From contig CALUHQ010000034.1 in NCBI GenBank assembly GCA_944320485.1, forward strand, positions 1 through 39,265: a stretch of DNA of 39,265 nt, given 5' to 3'. This document shows, one piece after another, positions 6,434 to 37,273 of this stretch. The translations under genes and the position numbers were made by a program. This stretch comes from Candidatus Methanomethylophilaceae archaeon (GTDB lineage: Archaea; Thermoplasmatota; Thermoplasmata; Methanomassiliicoccales; Methanomethylophilaceae). Below the pieces are notes generated by a model. That model had not been told where the DNA came from, did no database searches, and saw only the letters and a list, made by a program, of their open reading frames with translations. Each line of letters opens with the position of its first letter. The stretch's first letter is position 1.

Positions 6434-6453
6434 GGGAGATGATGGGTTTTATG

Positions 6454-6463
6454 ACTTATACAT
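6454..6463 (-). promoter_or_regulatory. TATA box for the 77-residue membrane protein
   Basis: The minus strand reads ATGTATAAGT, centred about 26 bp upstream of the ATG at 6433. Confidence 0.45.
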
Positions 6464-6512
6464 ATGGAACAAAGAGGAAAGTGTTCCCCGAGGGACGGCG
6501 CTCAATCCGTTC

Positions 6513-6530
6513 GAGGATACGCTTATCCTC
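6513..6530. promoter_or_regulatory. perfect inverted repeat upstream of the first AHAS gene
   Basis: GAGGATA and TATCCTC form perfect 7-bp arms around a 4-nt centre (CGCT). The element sits about 14 bp upstream of the likely TATA box of the AHAS gene, a normal place for an archaeal operator. Operator function is inferred; no identical copy was noticed near the second AHAS gene or ilvC. Confidence 0.35.
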
Positions 6531-6543
6531 ACAGGAAAAGAAT

Positions 6544-6553
6544 CATTATCATA
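6544..6553 (+). promoter_or_regulatory. candidate TATA box for the first AHAS gene
   Basis: CATTATCATA would place transcription start near 6575, about 10 nt before the preferred ATG and overlapping the GAGG ribosome-binding site. It is moderately weak as a box A. Confidence 0.3.
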
Positions 6554-6585
6554 GGGGATGCTCCTTCCAGGTCCGAGGCATGGAC

Positions 6586-8250
6586 ATGAGAGGGACCAAA
6601 GCGCTCCTTAGTATGCTTGAGAAGAAGGGAGTCGACACGGTCTTCGGTTATCCCGGAGGCAGTATCATCTCCGTCTACGACGAGCTTCTGGATTCGTCGA
6701 TCAGGCATATCCTGGTAAGGCACGAGCAGTGCGCCGCCCACATGGCGGACGGCTACGCCCGCGCCAAGAACCAGCCCGGGGTCTGCATGGCCACGAGCGG
6801 TCCCGGTGCCACCAACCTGGTCACCGGCATAGCCACAGCCTTCGCCGACTCGTCGCCGATGATCGCGCTCACCGGCCAGGTCGCGGCGGGGTCCCTCGGA
6901 CAGGGGGCGTTCCAGGAGGTGGACGCCTACAGTCTCCTGATGCCTATCACCAAGCACAGCTACAGGGTCCTGGACGTCAACAGGCTGCCACATGCGGTCA
7001 GCGAGGCCTGGGAGATATGCCAGACGGGCAGGAGGGGGCCGGTCCACATCGACCTTCCCATCGACCAGATGAACGCGGACATAGACGAGTCCCTCCTCGA
7101 CGGGAGGTTCGGCGTCAAGCCGCAGACCGAGGACCTGTCCGGGCTGCACGAGGCGGTCCAGTGGATACGCGATTCCAAGAGGCCCCTGATCCTGGTCGGA
7201 GGGGGCGCCATAGACGCGTCCAAGGAGGTCATGGAGCTCGCCCGCATCATGAGGGCGCCGGTCGTCAACACCCTGATGGGCATGGGGGTCGTCCCGTCGT
7301 CCTACGAGCTGAACCTCGGCCCGCTGGGACTCCACGGCAGGCTGTCCGCCCTGGAGATGTCCACCGAAGCGGACCTGATCATATCCATCGGCAGCAGGTT
7401 CTCGGACAGGACCTATAGCCCCCACGACAGGATGACCGACCCTCAGGGCCGGGTCATACACATCGACATCGATCCCACCGAGTTCAACAAGCACAGGCAT
7501 CAGTGCGTCAACCTCCAGGCGGATGCCAGGAAGGCGATCAGGGCGCTGATATGCGCCATGGGGTCCGCCCCCATGTCGTGGGCGCAGTGGACGGAGCACG
7601 CCCTGCAGGTCAAGAGGGCCCATGTCTGCGATGACGACCGCTGCTGCATGCCGATAGCCCCGCAGAAGGTCATGCACGAGATCAACAAGCTGATCGACGA
7701 CGACACGATAGTCACCACCGACGTCGGGCAGAACCAGATGTGGGCGATGCACTACCTGAACATAGAGCATCCCAGGCAGTTCCTGACGTCGGGCACCTTC
7801 GGGACCATGGGTTTCGGCCTGCCCTCCGCCATAGGGGCCAAGGCGGCCATGCCGGGGAAGAAGGTCATGACGATCACCGGCGACGGGGGGCTCCAGATGG
7901 TCATCCAGGAGCTGGCCACGTCGGTCGCCGAGCACCTGCCGGTCACGGTCGTCCTGCTCAACAACGGATGCCTCGGCATGATCAGGCAGATGCAGAAGCA
8001 CTATTGGAACGGGAGGTACTCCGCCGAGGTCCTGGGGGACGACCCGGACTTCGTGACGGTCGCCAGGGGATTCAGATGCAACGGCATCCATGTGGAGAGG
8101 CCCGAGGAGATAGGGGACGCGCTCAGGCAGGCCATGGACTCGGACGTGACAACAATAGTCGAGGTCATGGTGGACCCGGAGGCCGACATTCTCCCGATGC
8201 TCCCGATGAACCCGAGGATACCGATCATCAAGGGAGACTGCCACTACTGA
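6586..8250 (+). CDS. ilvB: acetohydroxyacid synthase-like catalytic subunit, copy 1 (Trp-to-Met variant)
   Basis: This 554-residue ThDP enzyme would condense pyruvate into 2-acetolactate, the first step of Val/Leu synthesis. Seen: the catalytic Glu47 in VRHEQCAAHMADGYAR, the ThDP motif from GDGGLQMV (about residue 432) to the Asn pair at 459-460, and the GAFQE segment. At residue 469 the motif reads RQMQ, where classical AHAS (and copy 2) has RQWQ. That Trp (Trp464 of E. coli AHAS II) favours 2-ketobutyrate, so copy 1 may make mainly acetolactate, or act on other keto acids. Of two near starts (6580, 6586), 6586 lies 7 nt after GAGG and matches the start of copy 2. No regulatory subunit is adjacent. 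The paralogue follows 91 bp downstream. Confidence 0.88.
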   Translation: MRGTKALLSMLEKKGVDTVFGYPGGSIISVYDELLDSSIRHILVRHEQCAAHMADGYARAKNQPGVCMATSGPGATNLVTGIATAFADSSPMIALTGQVAAGSLGQGAFQEVDAYSLLMPITKHSYRVLDVNRLPHAVSEAWEICQTGRRGPVHIDLPIDQMNADIDESLLDGRFGVKPQTEDLSGLHEAVQWIRDSKRPLILVGGGAIDASKEVMELARIMRAPVVNTLMGMGVVPSSYELNLGPLGLHGRLSALEMSTEADLIISIGSRFSDRTYSPHDRMTDPQGRVIHIDIDPTEFNKHRHQCVNLQADARKAIRALICAMGSAPMSWAQWTEHALQVKRAHVCDDDRCCMPIAPQKVMHEINKLIDDDTIVTTDVGQNQMWAMHYLNIEHPRQFLTSGTFGTMGFGLPSAIGAKAAMPGKKVMTITGDGGLQMVIQELATSVAEHLPVTVVLLNNGCLGMIRQMQKHYWNGRYSAEVLGDDPDFVTVARGFRCNGIHVERPEEIGDALRQAMDSDVTTIVEVMVDPEADILPMLPMNPRIPIIKGDCHY

Positions 8251-8300
8251 CGATTGGTCGCGGCCATCGTTCCGGAACACCATATGTCCGTGCGCGAAAC

Positions 8301-8308
8301 ATTATTAC
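8301..8308 (+). promoter_or_regulatory. candidate TATA box for the second AHAS gene
   Basis: ATTATTAC lies about 37 bp before the ATG at 8342. The second copy may thus have its own start site, with a very short leader carrying an AAGG site. Confidence 0.35.
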
Positions 8309-8341
8309 AGCCGCCCGGATACATCCCGCGAAGGCTTGCAT

Positions 8342-10012
8342 ATGAAAGGAACGAAGGCACTCGTCACGATGCTCGAGAGGAAGGGCGTCGACATAATTTT
8401 CGGATACCCGGGCGGAAGCGTCATCCCGATCTACGACGAGCTATACGACTCCAACCTCAGGCACATCCTCGTCAGGCACGAGCAGTGCGCGGCCCACATG
8501 GCGGACGGGTTCGCCAGGGCGTCCGGGAGGCCCGGGGTCTGTCTGTCCACCAGCGGACCGGGTGCGACCAACATGGTCACCGGGGTGGCCACGGCCTTCG
8601 CGGACTCGGTCCCGATGATCGCCCTGACGGGGCAGGTCGGCACCGGCTCGCTCGGCCTCGGAGCCTTCCAGGAGGTCGACGCCTACAGTCTCCTGATGCC
8701 GATCACCAAGCACAACTACAGGGTCCTGGACATCAACAGGCTGCCCCATGCCATCAAGGAGGCCTGGGAGCTGTGCCAGACCGGGCGTCCCGGGCCGGTG
8801 CACATCGACCTCCCGGTCGACCAGATGAACGGCGACATGGACGAGAGGTACCTGGACGAGGAGTACGGCATCAAGCCCCTGTGCGAGGACCTCTCCGACT
8901 TCGAGGAGGCCGTCCAGTGGATCAGGGCCGCGAAGCGCCCCGTCATACTTGTCGGGGGAGGGGCCGTCGGAGCATGCGACGAGGTCATGGAGCTGTCCCA
9001 GCTCCTCCAGGCCCCCGTGGACACGACCCTGATGAGCATGGGCGTCGTCCCGTCGACCTACGATCTCTGCATGGGCCCCCTCGGGATGCACGGCAGGATG
9101 TCCGCTCTCCACGCCATGAACGAGGCGGACCTGATCATCTCGATCGGCAGCAGGTTCTCGGACAGGACCTACAGCCAGAGGAGCCGCATGAGGAGCCCGG
9201 ACGGCAAGGTCGTCCACATAGACCTGGATGCCACGGAGTTCAACAAGCACAAGCACCCCGCGGCCAACCTCCAGTGCGATTCGAAGAAGGCCGTCCGCAT
9301 GCTGATCGACGCCCTGAGGCCCTCGTACGCCCCCAACACCGAATGGTCCGACAGGGCCAGGATGTTCAAGGGACACTGCGCATGCGACCCGGACTTCGAC
9401 ATCACGCCGATCGTGCCCCAGAAGGTCATGCACGAGATCAACAAGGTCATCGGCGACGACACGATAGTCACCACCGACGTCGGACAGAACCAGATGTGGG
9501 CGATGCACTACCTGGACATCGAGAAGCCCCGCAGGTTCCTGTCCTCGGGGACGTTCGGGACCATGGGGTATGGGCTCCCCGCGGCCATCGGGGCCAAGGC
9601 CGCCAAACCGGACATGAACGTCATGGCGATCACCGGCGACGGGGGGCTCCAGATGGTCATGCAGGAGCTGGCAACCTCCCTCGCCGAGGACCTGCCCGTC
9701 ACCGTGGTGCTGCTGAACAACGGCACCCTCGGCATGGTCAGGCAGTGGCAGAAGCTGTTCTGGAACGAGAGGTACTCCGCCACCACGCTGAGGTGCGACC
9801 CCGACTTCGTCAAGCTGGCCGAGTCGTTCGGTGCCAAGGGGATACGCGTGGAGAAACCGGGGGAGATCGCCGACGCCCTCAAGGAGGCCCGCGACTGCGG
9901 CAGGACATGCATAGTGGACATCACCGTCGACCCCGACGAGCACGTGCTCCCCATGATCCCGGCGGACCCCAAGGAGGACATCGTCATGGGCCGTTGCGGG
10001 TTCAGGATCTGA
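8342..10012 (+). CDS. ilvB: acetohydroxyacid synthase catalytic subunit, copy 2 (canonical)
   Basis: The 556-residue enzyme makes 2-acetolactate from two pyruvates, and 2-aceto-2-hydroxybutyrate from pyruvate plus 2-ketobutyrate, for Val/Leu/Ile. Motifs are the catalytic Glu47 in VRHEQCAAHMADGFAR, the GAFQEVDAYSLLMP segment, the ThDP motif GDGGLQMV followed about 27 residues later by NN, and GMVRQWQ with the substrate-selecting Trp469. It aligns without large gaps to copy 1, including the start MxGTKAL and the linker QKVMHEINK, so the pair is a tandem duplication. An in-frame TTG two codons earlier is rejected in favour of the ATG after AAGG. The partner ilvC lies 21 kb away; no small regulatory subunit is in the window. 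Confidence 0.93.
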   Translation: MKGTKALVTMLERKGVDIIFGYPGGSVIPIYDELYDSNLRHILVRHEQCAAHMADGFARASGRPGVCLSTSGPGATNMVTGVATAFADSVPMIALTGQVGTGSLGLGAFQEVDAYSLLMPITKHNYRVLDINRLPHAIKEAWELCQTGRPGPVHIDLPVDQMNGDMDERYLDEEYGIKPLCEDLSDFEEAVQWIRAAKRPVILVGGGAVGACDEVMELSQLLQAPVDTTLMSMGVVPSTYDLCMGPLGMHGRMSALHAMNEADLIISIGSRFSDRTYSQRSRMRSPDGKVVHIDLDATEFNKHKHPAANLQCDSKKAVRMLIDALRPSYAPNTEWSDRARMFKGHCACDPDFDITPIVPQKVMHEINKVIGDDTIVTTDVGQNQMWAMHYLDIEKPRRFLSSGTFGTMGYGLPAAIGAKAAKPDMNVMAITGDGGLQMVMQELATSLAEDLPVTVVLLNNGTLGMVRQWQKLFWNERYSATTLRCDPDFVKLAESFGAKGIRVEKPGEIADALKEARDCGRTCIVDITVDPDEHVLPMIPADPKEDIVMGRCGFRI

Positions 10013-21686: not shown

Positions 21687-22046
21687 ATGGGCATACTGAA
21701 GTTCGGGGGCAGGCTGCTGTCGAACATGGTGCACAAGCCGGTCACCAGGAACTATCCCGCGGAGCCACGCGAGTACACGGACCGCACACGCGGGCACGTG
21801 GAGTTCGATCCCGGGAGATGCATCCTGTGCAACATCTGCGGGAAGAAGTGCCCGACGGGCTCCATACATATGGACAAGGCCGCCAGGAAGCTGACCGTGG
21901 ACAGGATGCTCTGCATCCAGTGCGGGTACTGCGTCGATGTCTGTCCGAAGAAGTGCCTCTCCATGGCCGCGGATTACATACCTCCGGACACTGAGAAGAT
22001 CATTGACACCTACCAGGTCCCCGAGAAGCCCAAGGAAGAGGCCTGA
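21687..22046 (+). CDS. echF: Ech hydrogenase subunit F (2x[4Fe-4S] ferredoxin-like, NuoI-type)
   Basis: The 119-residue polyferredoxin-like subunit takes electrons from soluble ferredoxin. Two CxxCxxCxxxCP motifs are complete: Cys45-48-51-55 and Cys76-79-82-86. The tail is Glu/Pro/Lys-rich. It begins 4 nt after the echE stop and closes the operon, which ends in two hairpins. No hyp maturation genes are nearby. Confidence 0.94.
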   Translation: MGILKFGGRLLSNMVHKPVTRNYPAEPREYTDRTRGHVEFDPGRCILCNICGKKCPTGSIHMDKAARKLTVDRMLCIQCGYCVDVCPKKCLSMAADYIPPDTEKIIDTYQVPEKPKEEA

Positions 22047-22058
22047 TTACGAAACAGG

Positions 22059-22115
22059 GGTCCGTCGGACCTCATTCAACCCCGGGCCGTGCGGTCCGGG
22101 GAACCACTTTTCATC
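22059..22115 (+). terminator. tandem hairpins after echF
   Basis: A small hairpin GGTCC-GTC-GGACC (22059-22071) is followed by a 9-bp hairpin (22080-22088 with 22093-22101, one G-T pair, loop GTGC) and then a T-rich stretch containing CTTTTCATCCTTCT. Position and T-richness fit a terminator for the ech operon. Confidence 0.55.
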
Positions 22116-22164
22116 CTTCTGTAAACGTCAGGTAATTAGCACGGGGTGCCGGAGTTCTTCGGAG

Positions 22165-22246
22165 ATTTTAAAATAGGTGTAATTCAGGCCCTATAAGTTT
22201 TCAAAATAGGTGTATCAAAAGGCTGATCAGATTTTAAAATAGGTGT
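22165..22246 (+). repeat. three 16-bp direct repeats at exact 33-bp spacing
   Basis: Copies lie at 22165-22180, 22198-22213 and 22231-22246. Two are identical (ATTTTAAAATAGGTGT); the middle one differs at its left side (TTTTCAAAATAGGTGT). Starts are 33 bp apart in both cases, and the 17-bp spacers differ in sequence. The array is AT-rich within GC-rich surroundings and ends 22 bp before the ATG of the frameshifted ATPase. Each copy includes a TATA-like core, so it may act as a promoter/operator set. It is too short and too few for a CRISPR. Confidence 0.75.
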
Positions 22247-22268
22247 TATCATATAACAATCGAGAATG

Positions 22269-23611
22269 ATGACGACATTCAGACGGAAGATATACGCGGA
22301 GATGCTGGACTGGAAGGAGAGGTACAGCAGCAGGTATGCGTTGCTCACCGAGGGGGCCCGTCGCGTAGGGAAAACGACATTCGCCGAGGAGTTTGCGAGG
22401 AACGAGTTCGAGAACCATCTTCTGATCGATTTCACCAGGGTCGGTGAGGAGACGAAGCAACAGTTCAGGGATCTGGCCGACGATCTGGATGCGCTCTTCC
22501 GCTATCTTCAGTTCAGAGTACAGTTCTCAAGGAGGGCAAGAGCGTCATCATCTTCGACGAGGTGCAGGCGTTCCCCATAGTCAGACAGCTCATCAAGCAT
22601 CTCGTGAAGGACGGTCGTTACAGTTACATCGAGACCGGGTCACTGATCTCGCTCAAACAAAACGTCGAGGACATCCTCATACCGTCCGAGGAGATGCGCA
22701 TACAGATGCATCCCATGGACTTCGAGGAGTTCCTATGGGCACAGGGGGATGCATCCACTGCGGATCTCCTCAGGGAGTCCTTCGAATCGCTCACGCCGAT
22801 GGGCAGTTCCATCCATAAACATCTGATGCAGAAGTACACGACCTACATGCTGGTCGGGGGGATGCCTCAGGCAGTGGAGACGTTCATAGACAGCAACAAC
22901 TTCGACGAGGTCGAAGCGGTCAAAAGGACCATCCTCAGCATATACAGGGATGATACCGGGAAGATAAAATCGGACAGAGGTTCCAAGTCCAGACGTATAT
23001 TGGATCACATCCCGGCGTTGCTGTCGAGGCATGATAAAAGCTTCTCCCCATCGCAGTTGAGGAAGGGTTCGAAGACCCGCGAGTATTTCGAATCCGTGAC
23101 CTGGCTCGCCGAGTCCAAGATGGTGAACGTATGTCACTGCGCGTCGGATCCAGGGCTCGCCATGGGACTCAGCATAGACGAGCATTCGTTCAAGCTGTAC
23201 ATGCTCGACACGGGTCTTCTGGTGTCCGGATCGTTCCTGTCCAACACAGACACGTATTCGGAACTCTACGACAGGGTTCTGAAGGGGAATCTGAGCATGA
23301 ACAAGGGGATGCTCTTGGAGAATATCGTCGCCCAGGAGCTCACGGTGAGGAACCACGAACTTTTGTTCTGCAGATTCTGGGTCAAGGAGACGAAGAATCC
23401 GCAGGAGATCGATTTCATGCTCGTCAAGGACGGGAAGGTCATCCCCCTGGAGGTGAAATCGGGGGCGGACTCCACCAGGCATGTTTCTCTGGACAGGTTC
23501 ATGGATAAATTCCGGACGGTGACAGGCGGTGCCTATGTGATCCACACCAAGGACCTCAGGGTCGACGGCGACATCGTGTACCTGCCGGTGTACATGACCA
23601 TGTTCCTGTAA
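22269..23611 (+). pseudogene. AAA ATPase with DUF4143 and nuclease-like C-terminus, broken by a frameshift
   Basis: Two frames together make one protein of about 447 residues. Frame one (from ATG 22269; an ATG at 22266 also exists) gives Walker A LLTEGARRVGKTT. Frame two resumes by about 22526 with LKEGKSVIIFDEVQAFP (Walker B), then the sensor-like YIETGSLISLKQ, MHPMDFEEFLW, LVGGMPQAVETFI and, at the end, NPQEIDFMLVKDG...LEVKSG, an intact D/ExK nuclease-like motif. The shift equals loss of one base (or gain of two) between about 22490 and 22525, where no clear slippery heptamer is seen. Base use is more AT-rich than neighbours, suggesting transfer. Sequencing error or programmed frameshift remain possible. 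Confidence 0.8.
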
Positions 23612-23659: not shown

Positions 23660-24085
23660 ATGTCAAACGTAGCAGTGGTCTACTGGAGCGACACGGGGAA
23701 CACCGAGGCCATGGCCAACCTCGTGGCCGAAGGTATCCGTTCGGCCGGAGGGACCGCCGAGGTCATCACGGCCGACGGATTCGGCCCGGACAAGGTGTCC
23801 CAATACGACGCCATAGCCTTCGGATGCCCCGCCATGGGGGACGAGATCCTCGAGGAGGATGTGTTCGAGCCGATGTTCTCGGCGGTGGAGAGTCTCCTCT
23901 CCGGCAAGAGGGTCGGGATCTTCGGCTCCTACGACTGGGGGGACGGCCAGTGGATGAGGGACTGGGCCGACAGGTGCAGGGCCGCCGGTGCGGACCTGGC
24001 AAACGAAGGCGTGATAGCGAACCTCTATCCGAACGATGCCGAGGCCGATGACTGCAGGAAGCTCGGCGAGATGATGTGCTCATGA
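23660..24085 (+). CDS. flavodoxin
   Basis: The 141-residue FMN electron carrier is a short-chain flavodoxin. The phosphate-binding loop SDTGNTEAMA is at residues 10-19, with the next FMN-contact regions FGCPAMGDE (about 54-62) and FGSYDWGDGQW (about 89-99). Flavodoxins replace ferredoxin as low-potential carriers when iron is scarce. The promoter layout (two palindromic sites around the TATA box) suggests tight control. The mRNA is predicted leaderless. A tiny frame overlaps its stop (ATGA). Confidence 0.93.
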   Translation: MSNVAVVYWSDTGNTEAMANLVAEGIRSAGGTAEVITADGFGPDKVSQYDAIAFGCPAMGDEILEEDVFEPMFSAVESLLSGKRVGIFGSYDWGDGQWMRDWADRCRAAGADLANEGVIANLYPNDAEADDCRKLGEMMCS

Positions 24086-28023: not shown

Positions 28024-29391
28024 TCAGATCGTGTACACGCCGAAGTACGAAAGCAGCCCGGTGATGAGGATCAGCGCCATGAACACGGGGCAGATGACCT
28101 TCACGAGGTACCTGTACGCGCGCTTGGTCCTGAACGGCCCGGATAGCTCGATCTCCTCCTCGACGAACCTGGTCTTCACGAAGTATCCTATGATGACGCA
28201 GGTCACGAGGGCGGCTATGGGCATCATTATCGAGTTGGTGATGAAGTCGAAGAAGTCCAGGAACGCCAGTCCCAACGGCTCGATACCCGCCAGCGGGCCG
28301 TACCCGAGGCAGGACAGCAGTCCCAGCACCACGATCATCGCCATGCACACGATGCATGCTATCGAACGCTTCCATCCCCATCTGTCGCGGAAGATGGACA
28401 CCGCGGTCTCGCACAGGGATATGGACGATGTCCAGGCTGCGAACATGGCGAGCAGGAAGAACGCCGCGCCGATGATGTGGCCGGCGGGCATGGACTCGAA
28501 GACGAGGGGCATGGTCTCGAACATGAGCCCGGGTCCACTGGAGAGTCCGGGTCCGATGAAGAGGACGACCGCGGGGACCACCATGAGTCCCGAGAGGAAC
28601 GCTACAGAGGTGTCGGTGAGGCAGATCGTCAGCGCCGACTTCTCTATGTCCACGTTCTTGCGCATGTACGACCCGTAGGTGATCATGATCCCCATCGCGA
28701 GGGAGAGCGAGTAGAACAGCTGGCCCATGGCCCCGAGGACGGTGGACATGGAGAACTCGTCGAAATTGGGGACCAGGTAGTACGACAGCCCATCTCCTAT
28801 GCCGGGGAGCGTCATCATGTACACGCACATGCCAACGAGCAGGAGTAGCAGGGCGGGCATGAGGACCTTGCTCATCCTCTCCACACCCTTCTCCACGCCG
28901 AAGGCCACCACGGCCACGGAGATCACAGCGTAGATAAGGAACCAGGTGACCGGGCTGTCGAACAAGCCGGGGAGCGACGCCGATGTGAAATCCCCGAAGA
29001 AGGTGCCGTTGGCCAGTTCGGAGCCGGCGCCCACCGTGTACTCCACGAAGTACTTGGTGACCCATCCGCCGATGACGCAGTAGTACGGGACGATGATCAG
29101 CGGGATCAGCGCGATGAACCATCCGACTATCTTGTACCTCTCCCCGAGGTCCAGGAAGGCGTCGATGCATGACTTTCCGGTGCGTCTGCCGACAGCGAGC
29201 TCGGTGATCATGAGGGCCACGCCGAACGTGACCACGAGCACGAGGTAGGTCAGCAGAAATATCCCGCCACCGTACTGCTCGGCTAGGTATGGGAAGCGCC
29301 ACAGGTTCCCGAGGCCCACCGCGGAACCGGCGGCCGCCAGGATGAACCCCAGCCTCCCCGAGAAGCTGCCGCGCGAGGTGGCTTGCTCCAT
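28024..29391 (-). CDS. sodium:neurotransmitter (NSS/SNF) family symporter, copy 1
   Basis: The 455-residue membrane protein belongs to the SLC6/NSS Na+-coupled amino acid transporter family. The N-terminal signature GRLGFILAAAGSAVGLGNLW with RFPYLAEQYGGGIFLL forms helix 1 and holds Na+ and substrate. The conserved first loop ELAVGRRTGKS follows. About 11-12 helices fit the prokaryotic LeuT/TyT1/MhsT group. The substrate is probably an amino acid but cannot be specified. It has its own TATA box 26 bp before the ATG and is followed within 10 nt by marR. It is the tandem paralogue of the next gene upstream. Confidence 0.9.
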   Translation of the reverse strand: MEQATSRGSFSGRLGFILAAAGSAVGLGNLWRFPYLAEQYGGGIFLLTYLVLVVTFGVALMITELAVGRRTGKSCIDAFLDLGERYKIVGWFIALIPLIIVPYYCVIGGWVTKYFVEYTVGAGSELANGTFFGDFTSASLPGLFDSPVTWFLIYAVISVAVVAFGVEKGVERMSKVLMPALLLLLVGMCVYMMTLPGIGDGLSYYLVPNFDEFSMSTVLGAMGQLFYSLSLAMGIMITYGSYMRKNVDIEKSALTICLTDTSVAFLSGLMVVPAVVLFIGPGLSSGPGLMFETMPLVFESMPAGHIIGAAFFLLAMFAAWTSSISLCETAVSIFRDRWGWKRSIACIVCMAMIVVLGLLSCLGYGPLAGIEPLGLAFLDFFDFITNSIMMPIAALVTCVIIGYFVKTRFVEEEIELSGPFRTKRAYRYLVKVICPVFMALILITGLLSYFGVYTI

Positions 29392-29411
29392 GCATCGTCC
29401 AGGGATTACAT

Positions 29412-29420
29412 GATATATAT
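29412..29420 (-). promoter_or_regulatory. TATA box for NSS copy 1
   Basis: The minus strand reads ATATATATC, about 25 bp upstream of the ATG at 29391, giving a leaderless message for NSS copy 1 and probably marR. Confidence 0.55.
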
Positions 29421-29469
29421 CCTTCGGTCGCCCGCATCTCCTGGCACATGGTCGGCGGGATCGGTCGGC

Positions 29470-30846
29470 TCAGATGGTGTAGATGCCGAGGCCGCCGAGG
29501 ATGCCCACGACCAGGATGATCACCAGGATCACCGGGCAGACGTACTTGATCATGAAGCCGTAGACCGTCTTTATCTTGAACTCGCATCCGGACGACTCCA
29601 CCTCCTCGACCACGTACCTGGTCTTGACGACGTATCCGATCAGGATGCACGTGATCAGGGCCACGATGGGCATCATCACGGAGTTGGTGATGAAGTCGAA
29701 GAACGCCAGGAACGTCATGCCCAACGGCTCTATGAAACTGAGCGGCCCCTCCCCGAGGCATGCCAGCATGCCCAGCACCAGTATCACAGCCGAGACTATC
29801 ACGCAGGCGCGCACGCGGGTCATGTGCCAATGGTCCTTCAGCACAGCGACCACGGCCTCCATGAGGGCTATGGACGATGTCAGCGCGGCGAACATCGCCA
29901 GCAGGAAGAACGCGATGCCGACGAATTCCCCGCCAGGCATCACATCGAAGACCTGGGGCATCGTGGTGAACAAGAGCCCGAACCCGCTGGTCATCCCCTC
30001 GGAGCTGCCTGAGAACAGCACGAAGGCGGGGACGATCATGAGTCCGGAGAGGAACGCGACGCTGGTGTCGGTCAGGGCCACGGTGTAGGCCGACTTCTCG
30101 ATGTTGTCCTGCTTCCTCATGTAGGATCCGTAGGCTATGCTGATGCCCATGGCGATCGAGAGGGAGTAGAACAGCTGGCTGACGGCGCCCGCCAGCGTGG
30201 AGAACGAGAGCTTGTCGAAGTCCGGGACGAGGTAGTACGCCAGTCCGTCGGAGATCCCCGGGATCGTGAGCATGTAGACGCATATGGCGATGAGCAGCAC
30301 GAACAGGGCGGGCATGAGGACCTTGCTGAGCCTCTCGATGCCCTTCTCGACCCCGAAAACGACGACCACGATGGTCAGCAGGGCGTAGATCAGGAACCAC
30401 GGGACGGGGCTGTCGAAGAGGCCCCCGAGGTCCATCTGCGTGAACGACCCGAAGAAGCCGTTCGCGGCCAGGTCGGACCCGTTGCCGGTGGCGTAGTCGG
30501 CGAAGTACTTGGTGACCCATCCGCCGATGACGCAGTAGTACGGGACGATGATGGCAGGGACCAGCATGGCGATCCACCCGATTATGGGGTACTTGTCGCA
30601 CAGGTCCATGAGGGCGTCGAAGCAGGACTTCCCGGTGCGCCTCCCTATGGCCAGCTCGGTGATCAGCATGACGACTCCGAACGTCACCACGAGTATGAGG
30701 TACACGAGCAGGAAGATCCCCCCGCCGTACTGTTCGGCGAGGTACGGGAAGCGCCAGAGGTTCCCGAGACCGACGGCGGCGCCGGCGGTGGCCAGGAGGA
30801 ATCCCAGCCTGCCTGAGAACCCGCCACGTTTTTCGACGGTCTCCAT
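29470..30846 (-). CDS. sodium:neurotransmitter (NSS/SNF) family symporter, copy 2
   Basis: The 458-residue paralogue of the adjacent symporter shows the same hallmark helix 1 (ATAGAAVGLGNLWRFPYLA), the ELAIGRRTGKSC loop and about 11-12 helices. End segments near VALTDTSVAFLSGLMIVPAF and EPLGMTFLAFFDFITNS match copy 1 closely, so the pair comes from a duplication. The differing substrate-site neighbourhoods suggest different amino acid preferences. It starts at ATG 30846 with a TATA box 26 bp upstream; 78 bp with a separate promoter divide the copies. Confidence 0.9.
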   Translation of the reverse strand: METVEKRGGFSGRLGFLLATAGAAVGLGNLWRFPYLAEQYGGGIFLLVYLILVVTFGVVMLITELAIGRRTGKSCFDALMDLCDKYPIIGWIAMLVPAIIVPYYCVIGGWVTKYFADYATGNGSDLAANGFFGSFTQMDLGGLFDSPVPWFLIYALLTIVVVVFGVEKGIERLSKVLMPALFVLLIAICVYMLTIPGISDGLAYYLVPDFDKLSFSTLAGAVSQLFYSLSIAMGISIAYGSYMRKQDNIEKSAYTVALTDTSVAFLSGLMIVPAFVLFSGSSEGMTSGFGLLFTTMPQVFDVMPGGEFVGIAFFLLAMFAALTSSIALMEAVVAVLKDHWHMTRVRACVIVSAVILVLGMLACLGEGPLSFIEPLGMTFLAFFDFITNSVMMPIVALITCILIGYVVKTRYVVEEVESSGCEFKIKTVYGFMIKYVCPVILVIILVVGILGGLGIYTI

Positions 30847-33922: not shown

Positions 33923-34493
33923 TCAGGGACCGAGGGCCGTTATCGGGACCACGTAGATCCCGTCCTCACGATGATACGCGTATGACGACAGTCCTACGAG
34001 AACGCAGAGGAATTCCGGAGGCCTGCGACTGTCCTGGAACTTCTCGTTCATCTTCAGAAGCTTCTCGGCCGCTTCATCCACCTGGTTCATGCCGAGTTTG
34101 ATCTCGAAAGCACCCCAGCTGCCATTGGGCAATTCGACGATCGCATCGATCTCGTTGCCTCCGCTATCACGATAGTGCTTCAAGTCGCCGTTGTGGACCT
34201 CTGCATATATCCTCGGATTACGTTCGCACATCCCCTCGAACAGGAAACCATACGTGTTCAGGCCTCCGAGCAGACTCTCCATCGTGGCATTCATCGTCGC
34301 CGCCGAAAGTGAGGGGTCTGCAAGATGCCTCGAACAACGACATTGTATGTATCTCAAGGTCGCTATGCATTATGCCTTTGCGAACCGGCGTCGATGACCC
34401 TATGAGCACATACGCGCTCCTTGAGCCTTCCAAGGATACTCGGGCATGCACTGTATCCCATATCCTCCAACCGTAGAAATTCAAACGTTTCAA
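33923..34493 (-). pseudogene. decayed DUF4143-type ATPase remnant
   Basis: Two minus-strand frames contain pieces of one family. The upstream part (34493 to about 34330) reads GWRIWDTVHARV, then YVLIGSSTPVRKGIMHS and TMSLFEA. The downstream part (about 34335-33923) continues in another frame with SRHLADPSLSAATMNA, NTYGFLFEGM and the nuclease-like NEIDAIVEL...AFEIKLG. In intact proteins about 150 residues lie between MSLFE and RHLADPSL, so an internal deletion plus frameshift has occurred. The Walker A half is absent altogether. It is related in type to the ATPase at 22269 but closer to a different subgroup (GSSTP motif). Confidence 0.8.
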
Positions 34494-34510
34494 CCCGAGA
34501 AATTCAAAGA

Positions 34511-34544: not shown

Positions 34545-35870
34545 TCAGTTCCCGACCAGCTCGGTTCCCGAGAAGCTCATCGTCGGAACGGTGACGACGC
34601 CCATCTGTCTGGGGTCGTTGCCGATCATCTCGATGTTCCTGACGGCCTCCAGCATGTTGCCCATCAGCAGGGCGTTGTTGATCGTGTCCACGACCTCCCC
34701 GTTCCTGATGATGTAACCGCACCTGACGTTGAGGCCGAACCTGCCGGTCATCTCGTCGGCTTCGGGCCATGCGAACCTCTCCACGAATATGCCGCGGTCG
34801 GTCTGCTCGATGATCTGCTCCGGGGTGTACCTGCCCGGTTTCACCGTGACGTTCAGGGCCTTGATGACCGGGGTGCGCTCGTACGCGCCCTGGGCCTCTA
34901 CGCTGGACCTGCGCATGCCGTTCCCTGTGCTGTCGCCGCAGAACGAGTCCCTGAGGAACGACCTTAGGATCCCATCCTCGACGATGGTCCTCCTCTCCGT
35001 GGGGGTGCCCTCGTCGTCGAACACGCAGGAGAGCGGGGCCGACACCGTCGGGTCGTCCACGACCGTGAACTGCTCAGATGCCACCTGCTGTCCGACGGAG
35101 TCCTTCCAGAGGCTCCTGCCGTACTTCACGTTCTCCCCGTTGACGGCTGCGACCACCGACGAGTTGGTCATGTCCCCGAGCTGTCCCGGAGGCAGGATCA
35201 TGCTCAGCTTCTCGGACCCCTTGAACTCGTGGCTCGAGGCCGCCGCGTTCGCCTGACGCGCCAGCGACTCGCCGATGGAGCGCAGGTCGATGTCGAGGTG
35301 TGTGCCGTGGTAGGTCTCCATCCCCTCGCCGGGGTGGTCCTTCGTGGTCATCGATGTGAAGTGTCCGTAGACCAGGGTGCTCATGTGGGAGCAGTCGACG
35401 CCGTTGCCGTTCATGACCCTGCAGTCGTTGGTGGAGACCCTGATCTGGGCACGGGGTATGTTCACCGGGCACGACTCTATTAGGACCTTGGCCATCTCCC
35501 TGAGGTCGTCCGGGGTCACATCCTCGACCCTCCTGTCCCAGATGTCCGGCATGGCGATTCTGGCCTGCCCGGGCTGGGCGTAGCCCTTGAACTCCATGCT
35601 CTCGGGGGAGAACCTCAGGACGGCCTCCGCCATCGACATGCATTCCATGACGGACCGGTCGTCGTTCAGGGTGACGGACGCCTTCCCCTGCCTGCCGCCG
35701 TCCGCGATGCGGATCATCAGGCCGGAGTCCAGCTTGGTCTCGATGTTGCTTATCCTGGAGTCGTCGATGTAGACCGTGTTGATCACGGCCTCGGAGACGT
35801 ACACCTCCGACTGGCCGTAGTCCCTGGACGCCTCCATGGCCTTCTCGGCGTAGTATCCGATGTCGCTCAC
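34545..35870 (-). CDS. pmbA: TldE/PmbA subunit of the TldD/E metallopeptidase
   Basis: The 441-residue protein is the non-catalytic partner of TldD; the heterodimer degrades unfolded peptides and in bacteria matures some RiPPs. It lacks HExxxH, as expected for TldE. Family segments are NTVYIDDSRISNIETKLDSG near the N-terminus, CVFDDEGTPTERRTIVEDGI in the middle, and RCGYIIRNGEVVDTINNALL towards the end. The start is a GTG at 35870 overlapping the tldD stop (GTGA), preceded by a GGGGAGGA site. It is the last gene of the M24-tldD-tldE operon and ends at a U-rich terminator. Confidence 0.9.
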   Translation of the reverse strand: MSDIGYYAEKAMEASRDYGQSEVYVSEAVINTVYIDDSRISNIETKLDSGLMIRIADGGRQGKASVTLNDDRSVMECMSMAEAVLRFSPESMEFKGYAQPGQARIAMPDIWDRRVEDVTPDDLREMAKVLIESCPVNIPRAQIRVSTNDCRVMNGNGVDCSHMSTLVYGHFTSMTTKDHPGEGMETYHGTHLDIDLRSIGESLARQANAAASSHEFKGSEKLSMILPPGQLGDMTNSSVVAAVNGENVKYGRSLWKDSVGQQVASEQFTVVDDPTVSAPLSCVFDDEGTPTERRTIVEDGILRSFLRDSFCGDSTGNGMRRSSVEAQGAYERTPVIKALNVTVKPGRYTPEQIIEQTDRGIFVERFAWPEADEMTGRFGLNVRCGYIIRNGEVVDTINNALLMGNMLEAVRNIEMIGNDPRQMGVVTVPTMSFSGTELVGN

Positions 35871-37273
35871 TGTCCTCCCCCCACGATCATCCTGGCACGC
35901 ATGTACGGCCCTCCGGACGAGACCCTCACCCAGTCCTCGATGCCCTTGCCGCACATCCCTCCGTCCAGGACGACCTCCTTGGACAGGGCGTCGGCCGAGG
36001 ACAGGATGTCCACGGACCTGCCGGTGAGGGTGAAGGACTGCAGCGGCTTGACGATCTCGCCGTTCCTGATGAGGAAGCCCCTGAGGCACTTGGCCTCGAA
36101 GCACCCTCCGACCGGATCCTCCATGCCGTTGACCATCTTGTCGCACAGGATCCCGTCCTTCGTGTCCGCGATGATCTCGTCCCTGTTCCATTCGCCGGGA
36201 CCGAAGTACGTGTTGGTCATCCTGACCCACACCCTCTTGCCGTAGTTCTCGGCCCTGCCGTTGCCGGTGGGCCTCGTGCCGAGCTGCGAGGCGGTCTCCA
36301 GGCTGTGCATGTACCCCTTGTAGACCCCGTCCTCGATGATGGTCGTGCACGAGGACGGCGTGCCCTCGTCGTCGAACGGGACCGACCCGTGAGCTCCGCG
36401 GACCGTCCCGTTGTCGTACATCGTGATTATCTCGGAGGCCACCTTCCTGCCGACGGCGTCGGTCAGGAACGACCTCCTCTTGGTTATCTCGTCCCCCTCG
36501 GACGCGTGGCCCATGGCCTCGTGGGCCAGGAGCCCGGACACCATGGGGTCGGAGATGACCGTCAGGTTCCCGGACGGGGCCCTGTCAGCCTTCAGGGTCT
36601 CGATGGCCTCCCTGGCCGTGACCCTTCCCAGCTCCTCCAGGTCGGCGTCCCTCACGACCTCGAACCCCAGGGTGCTGTCAGGACCGTCGTAGTAGCGCTC
36701 CATCCTCTGGCCGTCGGCGGCCACGGACATGGCCCTGCAGAGGGTGCGGACCTCCTCCCAGCTCAGGTCGGAGCCGGCGGAGTTGACGAGCGCGTTTGTC
36801 TTCATCTCCTCGGAGTACGAGCCTATGCGGTTGATGATGCGGTCGTCCACGGCCTGGGCCCTGTCCAGGTCCTGCGCCGCGGCGATCTTCTCGGAGAGGT
36901 CGACGGAGTCCGGATGGATGCGGACGTCCGCCCTGCGGTGCTCCCGCACGGTGGCGGGTTCGAGCATAAGGTCAGACTTCCTCTCTCCGGACGCGTTCCT
37001 GACCGCCTGCTCGGCGGCCCTCACGACGGCGTCCCTGTCGAAGCTGGTGGCGGTGCCGTATCCCCATCTCCCTCCGATCCATGCCCTGAGGCACACCCCT
37101 CCGGTGCTCTTCTGCACCAGCTGGCGGATGTCCCCGTTCATCGAGCTGACGCCCGTGACCCTGACGGTCTGGGACCTGGCGTCGGAGAACTCCGCGCCCA
37201 TGTCCTGCATCCTGTCGACGGCCTTGTGCAGGATGTCCTGGGCCTGCTCGGCCTTTGCGAGGACCGCCTGCAT
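35867..37273 (-). CDS. tldD: TldD zinc metallopeptidase subunit
   Basis: The 468-residue subunit contains the zinc motif HEAMGH (HExxxH) in GLLAHEAMGHASEGDE, near residue 250. Other TldD features are the FDDEGTPSSCTTIIEDGVYK stretch and the C-terminal GGMCGKGIEDWVRVSSGGP. It hydrolyses small unfolded peptides inside the TldD/E chamber. Two ATGs are adjacent (37276 and 37273); the second has better spacing from a GGTGG site, though this is not decisive. It overlaps the M24 peptidase stop and, by 4 nt, the GTG of tldE. Confidence 0.92.
   Translation of the reverse strand: MQAVLAKAEQAQDILHKAVDRMQDMGAEFSDARSQTVRVTGVSSMNGDIRQLVQKSTGGVCLRAWIGGRWGYGTATSFDRDAVVRAAEQAVRNASGERKSDLMLEPATVREHRRADVRIHPDSVDLSEKIAAAQDLDRAQAVDDRIINRIGSYSEEMKTNALVNSAGSDLSWEEVRTLCRAMSVAADGQRMERYYDGPDSTLGFEVVRDADLEELGRVTAREAIETLKADRAPSGNLTVISDPMVSGLLAHEAMGHASEGDEITKRRSFLTDAVGRKVASEIITMYDNGTVRGAHGSVPFDDEGTPSSCTTIIEDGVYKGYMHSLETASQLGTRPTGNGRAENYGKRVWVRMTNTYFGPGEWNRDEIIADTKDGILCDKMVNGMEDPVGGCFEAKCLRGFLIRNGEIVKPLQSFTLTGRSVDILSSADALSKEVVLDGGMCGKGIEDWVRVSSGGPYMRARMIVGGGQ

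Follow-up and report, generated by a model that had tools for sequence, protein, structure and literature searches.

A phased, largely gene-specific repeat array at the promoter of DUF4143 ATPases of the candidate defence family PDC-S01

Introduction

According to the accessible part of its description, PDC-S01, in which an ATPase is fused to a PD-(D/E)XK-type domain, ranks fourth in frequency among the defence systems (candidates) of prokaryotes, its instances numbering 9,986 in archaea and 29,494 in bacteria, and experimental validation is pending for most such candidates (PMC12988326). The available portions of two papers describe it as abundant throughout, with an enrichment in archaea and transfer from one domain to the other (PMC12988326, PMC13356809). 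The ATPase studied here likewise combines an ATPase with a PD-(D/E)XK-type domain, but PDC-S01 as described includes no promoter-linked repeat array, and the words "direct repeat" are absent from the accessible text (PMC12988326).

Archaeal STAND ATPases (2qen, PAB2304; 2fna, SSO1545) and CED-4, NLR and Avs proteins share a fold with residues 1-324 of the structure model of L163, a relative of the ATPase studied here. In contrast to the STAND ATPases, PDC-S01 has a predicted winged helix-turn-helix (wHTH) that covaries with DNA repeats, and a nuclease domain follows it. Toxin-antitoxin, restriction-modification control and plasmid rep genes have autoregulated operators with self-specific sites, and their paralogues are insulated from one another. 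The arrays described below resemble these operators in placing self-specific sites at the gene's own promoter; they differ in that the predicted reader lies inside a large ATPase-nuclease and in that the sites are three to seven direct repeats at a clade-fixed step. In the part of the source available, RptR is a repressor controlling restriction-modification systems in defence islands and is thus likewise a repressor over a phage defence locus, whereas here the candidate effector itself bears the predicted DNA-binding domain (PMC12255303). Phased direct repeats are common to our arrays and to plasmid iterons as far as the accessible text describes the latter (PMC4980987), but our arrays lie at a promoter, without an initiator or a replication context. 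CRISPR arrays have longer, near-identical repeats, unique spacers, and cas genes or a leader; the present array has 18-bp repeats in three copies at a promoter.

DUF4143, COG1373 (which we take to be this DUF4143 ATPase family) and PDC-S01 are each named in few papers of the open literature. Its accessible portion, to which the original PDC-defining paper does not belong, yielded no account of phased arrays at PDC-S01/DUF4143 ATPases, and such arrays are not mentioned in the available parts of the Methanomassiliicoccales genome paper PMC4153887 and of PMC4158269. Here we analyse a 39,265-nucleotide contig of a Candidatus Methanomethylophilaceae archaeon (the whole stretch is called the window), in which an array of this kind precedes an ATPase gene.

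Results

Three phased repeats in front of the ATPase gene

The window contains three copies of a AGATTTTAAAATAGGTGT-type repeat, each of 18 bp, together with a TATA-like stretch within the last copy:

22163..22180, plus strand: repeat copy 1, AGATTTTAAAATAGGTGT
22196..22213, plus strand: repeat copy 2, AGTTTTCAAAATAGGTGT, 16/18 identical to copy 1
22229..22246, plus strand: repeat copy 3, identical to copy 1 over 18 bp
22232..22241, plus strand: TATA-like stretch in copy 3, centred about 29 bp 5' of the ATG (from the sequence; in relatives, too, TATA-like sites are most frequent at this position)

The start-to-start steps are exactly 33 and 33 bp, as a first-pass annotation of this DNA had claimed, and none of 2000 dinucleotide-preserving shuffles of the 219-bp region equalled the three-copy score. 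The last copy stops 19 bp 5' of the ATPase ATG at 22266; the three copies reported in the annotation stood, whereas its gap of 22 bp did not, and its end coordinate of 22268 overran the array into the start codon. A scan of the whole window (spacing 15-60, score at least 9) detected no other three-copy array, and the three occurrences of the exact 11-mer AAAATAGGTGT in the 1.71-Mb assembly all lie in this one.

The spacers in the window are mutually unrelated, in agreement with the annotation, and have also diverged from those of the orthologue L151 of another genome. When the two regions were aligned on ATAGGTGT, all three copies were kept in the 33-bp register, with 41/45 repeat positions identical versus 19/54 of the remaining positions of the 33-bp unit. 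This difference indicates that the repeat sites are probably under selection and that the spacers are not. The region is AT-rich, and an array could in principle arise there by chance or as a low-complexity artefact of the promoter; the shuffles, this phylogenetic footprint and the recurrence across the family (below) contradict such an origin, which can practically be dismissed. The TATA-like core that had been noted in the repeats is present, and that of copy 3 would, judging by its position, be the core promoter of a leaderless transcript.

The gene behind the array encodes a PDC-S01 ATPase

The gene that follows the array encodes AAA_14 and DUF4143 domains and comprises the following parts:

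22266..22580, plus strand: 5' part of the ATPase gene (AAA_14, PDC-S01), whose frame ends early by a frameshift
22353..22376, plus strand: Walker A motif GARRVGKT, from sequence and translation
22562..23611, plus strand: 3' part of the ATPase gene in the other frame (DUF4143, PDC-S01)
23015..23149, plus strand: predicted wHTH, equivalent by alignment to residues 251-295 of L151; it covaries with the repeats and is seen in the L163 model
23405..23458, plus strand: PD-(D/E)XK-like motif E-x-D-F ... E-V-K, conserved in the A1 and A2 alignments

The PADLOC PDC-S01 models matched 22562-23611 with an E value of 1.5e-79 (positions 96-433 of 452) and 22266-22580 with 1e-14. The orthologue L151 (genome G016) is intact, with 448 amino acids, and matched the PDC-S01 model over residues 4-448 (E 1.1e-107). 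The ATPase and the PD-(D/E)XK-type C-terminal domain by which PDC-S01 is recognised were both found, as AAA_14, DUF4143 and the conserved E-x-D-F ... E-V-K motif, and all tested relatives, like both ORFs of the window, matched the PDC-S01 HMMs. By these matches the family is PDC-S01, a single-gene candidate antiphage ATPase-nuclease. NCBIfam gave no match for four proteins, and a PDB sequence search detected no close relative. The best named relative, Ca. Methanomethylophilus sp. 1R26, suggests that the organism probably belongs to the Methanomassiliicoccales.

The frameshift splits the gene near 22515-22560. The assembly is fragmented (83 contigs, 88% complete), and the break may be either a real mutation, which could leave the protein dead in its genome, or an assembly error.

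The array and the gene form one cassette

The array and ATPase gene lie between two genes of other function:

21687..22046, plus strand: 4Fe-4S ferredoxin-type gene, left neighbour of the cassette
23660..24085, plus strand: flavodoxin gene, right neighbour of the cassette; in four other genomes it directly follows the ferredoxin gene

A close homologue of the ferredoxin gene was found in 11 of 31 genomes of the genus. It is followed by the array and the ATPase gene in two of these (G000 and G016), while in four (G061, G096, G099 and G085) the flavodoxin gene comes directly after it and both array and ATPase gene are absent. In the other five, neither the ATPase nor the flavodoxin gene occurred in the fetched flank. 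Thus, array and ATPase gene are present or absent jointly, as a single cassette flanked by the ferredoxin and flavodoxin genes, and the first-pass description "mobile-looking" is supported in the sense of presence and absence.

A presence/absence unit with phased direct repeats resembling iterons might suggest that the repeats are iterons or element ends serving replication or transposition of a mobile cassette. However, the array stands at the gene start only, the three-copy scan of the window did not reveal a counterpart at the opposite end of the cassette, and the unit contains no replication or transposase gene. We therefore regard this explanation as highly improbable, and the term "iteron", which the annotation had used, gains no support in its replication sense for a unit flanked by ferredoxin and flavodoxin genes.

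Elsewhere in the window, three tandem pairs of similar genes were seen by eye in the ORF list, at 6439-10012, 28024-30846 and 34545-37200; they presumably encode acetolactate synthase, a sodium symporter-like transporter and a TldD/PmbA-type protein, respectively.

Phased arrays recur before DUF4143 ATPases

A PF13635 search was positive in 26/26 genomes of the genus, with 3-20 matches each and 296 in total, and we examined 140 of the 296, taken from the best-scoring matches listed (one row with an internal stop was skipped). Walker A placed 133 of the 140 loci; a frame with a usable Walker A was lacking in L008, L014, L016, L049, L063, L077 and L108. For the window locus (L010), which is frameshifted, the score was taken from the first frame, and this locus stands outside the covariation and tree analyses. 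The array score was based on three equally spaced copies within 350 bp before Walker A. At a score of at least 6, arrays were detected in 82/133 upstream regions, compared with 0/133 gene bodies and 2/665 shuffles. Among the 83 regions scoring at least 5.5, the spacing was 23 bp in 40, 24 bp in 3, 32 bp in 16, 33 bp in 18 and 34 bp in 3, and three had other spacings.

The same architecture was found in relatives from named archaea, many gut bacteria and viral contigs: 78/105 regions scored at least 6, versus 1/105 gene bodies and 11/525 shuffles, and 72 scored at least 7, versus 0/105 and 2/525. The array counts contain near-copies (for example L114/L115, L048/L065, L243/L244, L247-L250 and L161/L167). 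Spacings in these 105 relatives were almost all 32-34 bp. Relatives are present on 26 viral contigs, of which one locus (L267) lies outside the 105-relative scan. No three-copy array was detected at score 6 in 51/133 and 27/105 regions, nearly one whole clade included.

The 532 kb surrounding 80 named loci contain 63 strong arrays, of which 52 are placed at the ATPase start; the 11 elsewhere include one run of N, one that is the long array of the gene itself and one that precedes a further ATPase of broadly this kind. At about 4563 of L179, the ATPase is adjoined by another, different one (GVRRSGKST), ahead of which stands a 32-bp array of other sequence. L229 (about 4820) and L182 (about 6194) each have an additional phased array with a step of 32-33 bp, situated 1.8 and 3.2 kb beyond the start of the ATPase, respectively, with a repeat resembling that of the local ATPase array; it is possible that these second arrays mark extra target genes. 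L167 (about 4382), which is one locus with L161, has a single array, and this follows immediately on the ATPase stop instead of preceding the start.

Four other DUF4143 ATPases of the window's genome have arrays of their own: AAATCAAAGTGTATTTT in four copies at 33 bp (L013), a CTAATTTTCTTGAAAATA-like repeat in four copies at 33 bp (L012), CGCCAACTTGCAT in three copies at 23 bp (L006) and CCGGTAAACTC in four copies at 24 bp (L007). Further, a second PDC-S01 ATPase, belonging to the 23-bp class, survives as a remnant on the minus strand of the window at 33923-34510 (PDC-S01 E 2e-11); upstream of it, a TTTGAATTTCT repeat is still present twice, 23 bp apart, with starts at 34508 and 34485.

The annotation had suggested that copies of the window repeat in front of other DUF4143 ATPases would be a signature of the family. 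The architecture recurs, as shown by the counts above, but the literal word does not: its two-copy pattern occurred in 1 of 100 family genomes, the window's own, and was absent from the 99 others. A 15-mer allowed up to 3 mismatches gave 14 other matches, scattered and nearly all single, compared with 12 for a reversed-pattern control. One common word was rejected as the family signature, which lies instead in spacing and place, with a repeat that is largely specific to each gene. The signature of DUF4143 ATPases is thus an evenly spaced, largely gene-specific promoter array, of which the window is one example. Since many repeats of the 33-bp class have GTG(T)A in common, their specificity is only partly private.

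Spacing, orientation and promoter position of the arrays

The spacing class (23 versus 32-34 bp) changed once among 68 array-bearing rows of a 122-protein tree, which was built with FastTree and is to be read with modest care. Array spacing is fixed by protein clade. The orientation of the repeat is also fixed: among 105 consensuses of the 33-bp class, GTG was on the coding strand in 63 and CAC in 6, and GTGT was on the coding strand in 29 and on the other strand in 0. Arrays hold 3-7 copies. The array in the window looks like a multi-site protein-binding array, as the annotation had read it, although binding on one face of the DNA, which it had added, is only approximate: at 10.5 bp per turn, 33 bp corresponds to 3.14 turns and the 23 bp of the sister clade to 2.19. 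A strict one-face geometry was rejected by the same arithmetic (+51 and +69 degrees per step for 33 and 23 bp). Given these turns, a fixed protein-protein step would describe the arrays better than a shared DNA face.

In the archaeal genus, the median distance from the end of the array to the start codon is 22-25 bp. TATA-like sites, which array-less relatives have as well, are centred at -30 to -25, so that the last repeat abuts or overlaps the core promoter. By position, the sites overlap the gene's own core promoter as those of an operator would. When bacterial consensus promoters were mapped, the best sites fell on and between the repeats, in a procedure that is circular for AT-rich spacers.

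This scatter of promoter-like sites is compatible with some bacterial arrays lying partly downstream of the promoter, and with repeats that act in the transcript as an RNA element of the 5' leader. In archaea, however, the array lies on or upstream of TATA-like sites 25-30 bp before the start codon and is therefore mostly not transcribed; further, the spacers are unconserved and Rfam gave no match across 21950-22400 of the window. An RNA element is thus very unlikely. It could also be proposed that the array serves as a tag for targeting or immunity, by which the ATPase-nuclease recognises rival elements with the same tag or marks its own DNA, with promoter control being secondary. The description of PDC-S01 as a defence candidate, in the accessible part of the source (PMC12988326), is in keeping with such a tag, as are the relatives on the 26 viral contigs and the largely private repeats; a free tag, in contrast, would need neither the promoter location nor the fixed orientation, and we consider this proposal improbable.

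Among genus relatives lacking an array (for example L015, L034, L038, L068 and L129), a long inverted repeat was found in 22/50 upstream regions versus 2/150 shuffles and, in the separately counted loci with a GxRRCGK Walker A, in 3/5. These inverted repeats often end 20-30 bp before the start. The common principle may be that each gene has an operator of its own at its promoter, built from direct or from inverted repeats according to clade.

The repeats covary with a predicted winged helix-turn-helix of the ATPase

For 99 proteins of the 33-bp class, the similarity of repeat consensuses was weakly related to whole-protein identity (rho 0.11). One segment of the protein reached 0.24; the ATPase core gave 0.07, the nuclease part 0.10 and a reverse-complement control -0.06. 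We scanned the proteins in sliding 25-residue windows by partial correlation given whole-protein identity. The peak was at residues 251-295 of L151 (0.28, versus a maximum of 0.16 in 60 permutations); the remaining windows were mostly near or below zero, with a lower secondary rise at residues 291-335 and 356-390. The bacterial and viral rows alone (69 proteins) gave 0.308 versus 0.173, the maximum of 40 permutations, and after thinning to less than 60% identity (27 proteins) 0.379 versus 0.274, again the maximum of 40. All rows at less than 60% identity (53 proteins) were borderline (0.232 versus 0.220). Covariation was within the permutation null for the archaeal subset (30 proteins), the archaeal rows at less than 60% identity (26) and the set at less than 50% identity (29), and no clear peak was observed in the 23-bp class (41 proteins).

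Pairwise comparison gave a corresponding gradient. Among pairs with 50-60% identity in the ATPase core, similar repeats (score at least 8) were found in 21.6% of 338 pairs when the HTH was at least 50% identical, in 9.1% of 625 pairs at 30-50% HTH identity and in 1.5% of 930 pairs below 30%.

The AlphaFold model of L163 (pLDDT 91.3) contains helices at 240-253, 261-264 and 270-282 and strands at 286-292 and 303-312, a segment that we read as a winged helix-turn-helix. VIA-align, a second aligner run on the candidates of Foldseek, which alone gave only weak global matches, matched residues 1-324 of the model more strongly, to 2qen (Z 16.9), 2fna (Z 15.1), CED-4 and NLR rows (Z 11-15) and Avs5 (Z 12.0). 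The STAND arrangement, an AAA core and then a winged helix, is thus present in the model of this relative of the window protein. Because the predicted wHTH covaries with the DNA repeats, it points to a DNA-reading role, and the ATPase itself probably reads its array.

Winged helix-turn-helix regulators are common, and an array overlapping a promoter would suit any repressor, so that a separate host transcription factor might instead bind the repeats and control the genes. However, repeats differ from gene to gene in one genome and the architecture spans archaea and many bacterial groups; thus, one host factor cannot serve all. The covariation, moreover, is with the ATPase's own wHTH, and the window cassette has the ferredoxin and flavodoxin genes as its neighbours, neither of them a regulator gene. 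A host factor in place of the ATPase is accordingly quite unlikely.

Discussion

The reading that we favour, and hold with moderate confidence to be the probable one, is that the repeats are a private operator array of the PDC-S01 ATPase, bound through its wHTH with one protomer per repeat and repressing its own gene. The protein would be a STAND-type AAA ATPase that carries a PD-(D/E)XK-type nuclease domain at its C-terminus and is a candidate for antiphage defence. Each repeat would be taken by one protomer through the wHTH between the ATPase and nuclease parts, and adjacent protomers would stand in a row whose step (23 or 32-34 bp) is set by the protein clade. Such a row would cover the core promoter, and the gene would repress itself until the complex is disturbed. 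As the family is labelled PDC-S01, one would first guess that phage infection triggers the release. We infer each of these elements, namely binding by the ATPase, repression, cooperativity and release linked to infection, from comparative data.

A more far-reaching proposal, which we put forward tentatively and consider somewhat unlikely as a whole, is that PDC-S01 proteins act as self-contained tripwires. Protomers of the ATPase-nuclease, parked by their wHTH on the private array, would form a row that resembles a filament and has the clade-fixed step; invasion would disturb the row, lift self-repression and free or activate the nuclease. Lost DNA integrity, take-over of the host or a competitor with the same repeat could each be the trigger. 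On this proposal, wHTH and repeat would diversify together, like locks and keys, so that paralogues in one cell are insulated.

An array phased at 23 or 33 bp in front of a DUF4143 ATPase would provide a cheap genomic marker. Further, with a DNA site found from archaea to Bifidobacterium and a predicted reader, the question of what these ATPases sense or bind would become one of simple binding, swap and reporter experiments, and the natural variation in both the repeat and its predicted reader would offer a handle on how the uncharacterised PDC-S01 family works.
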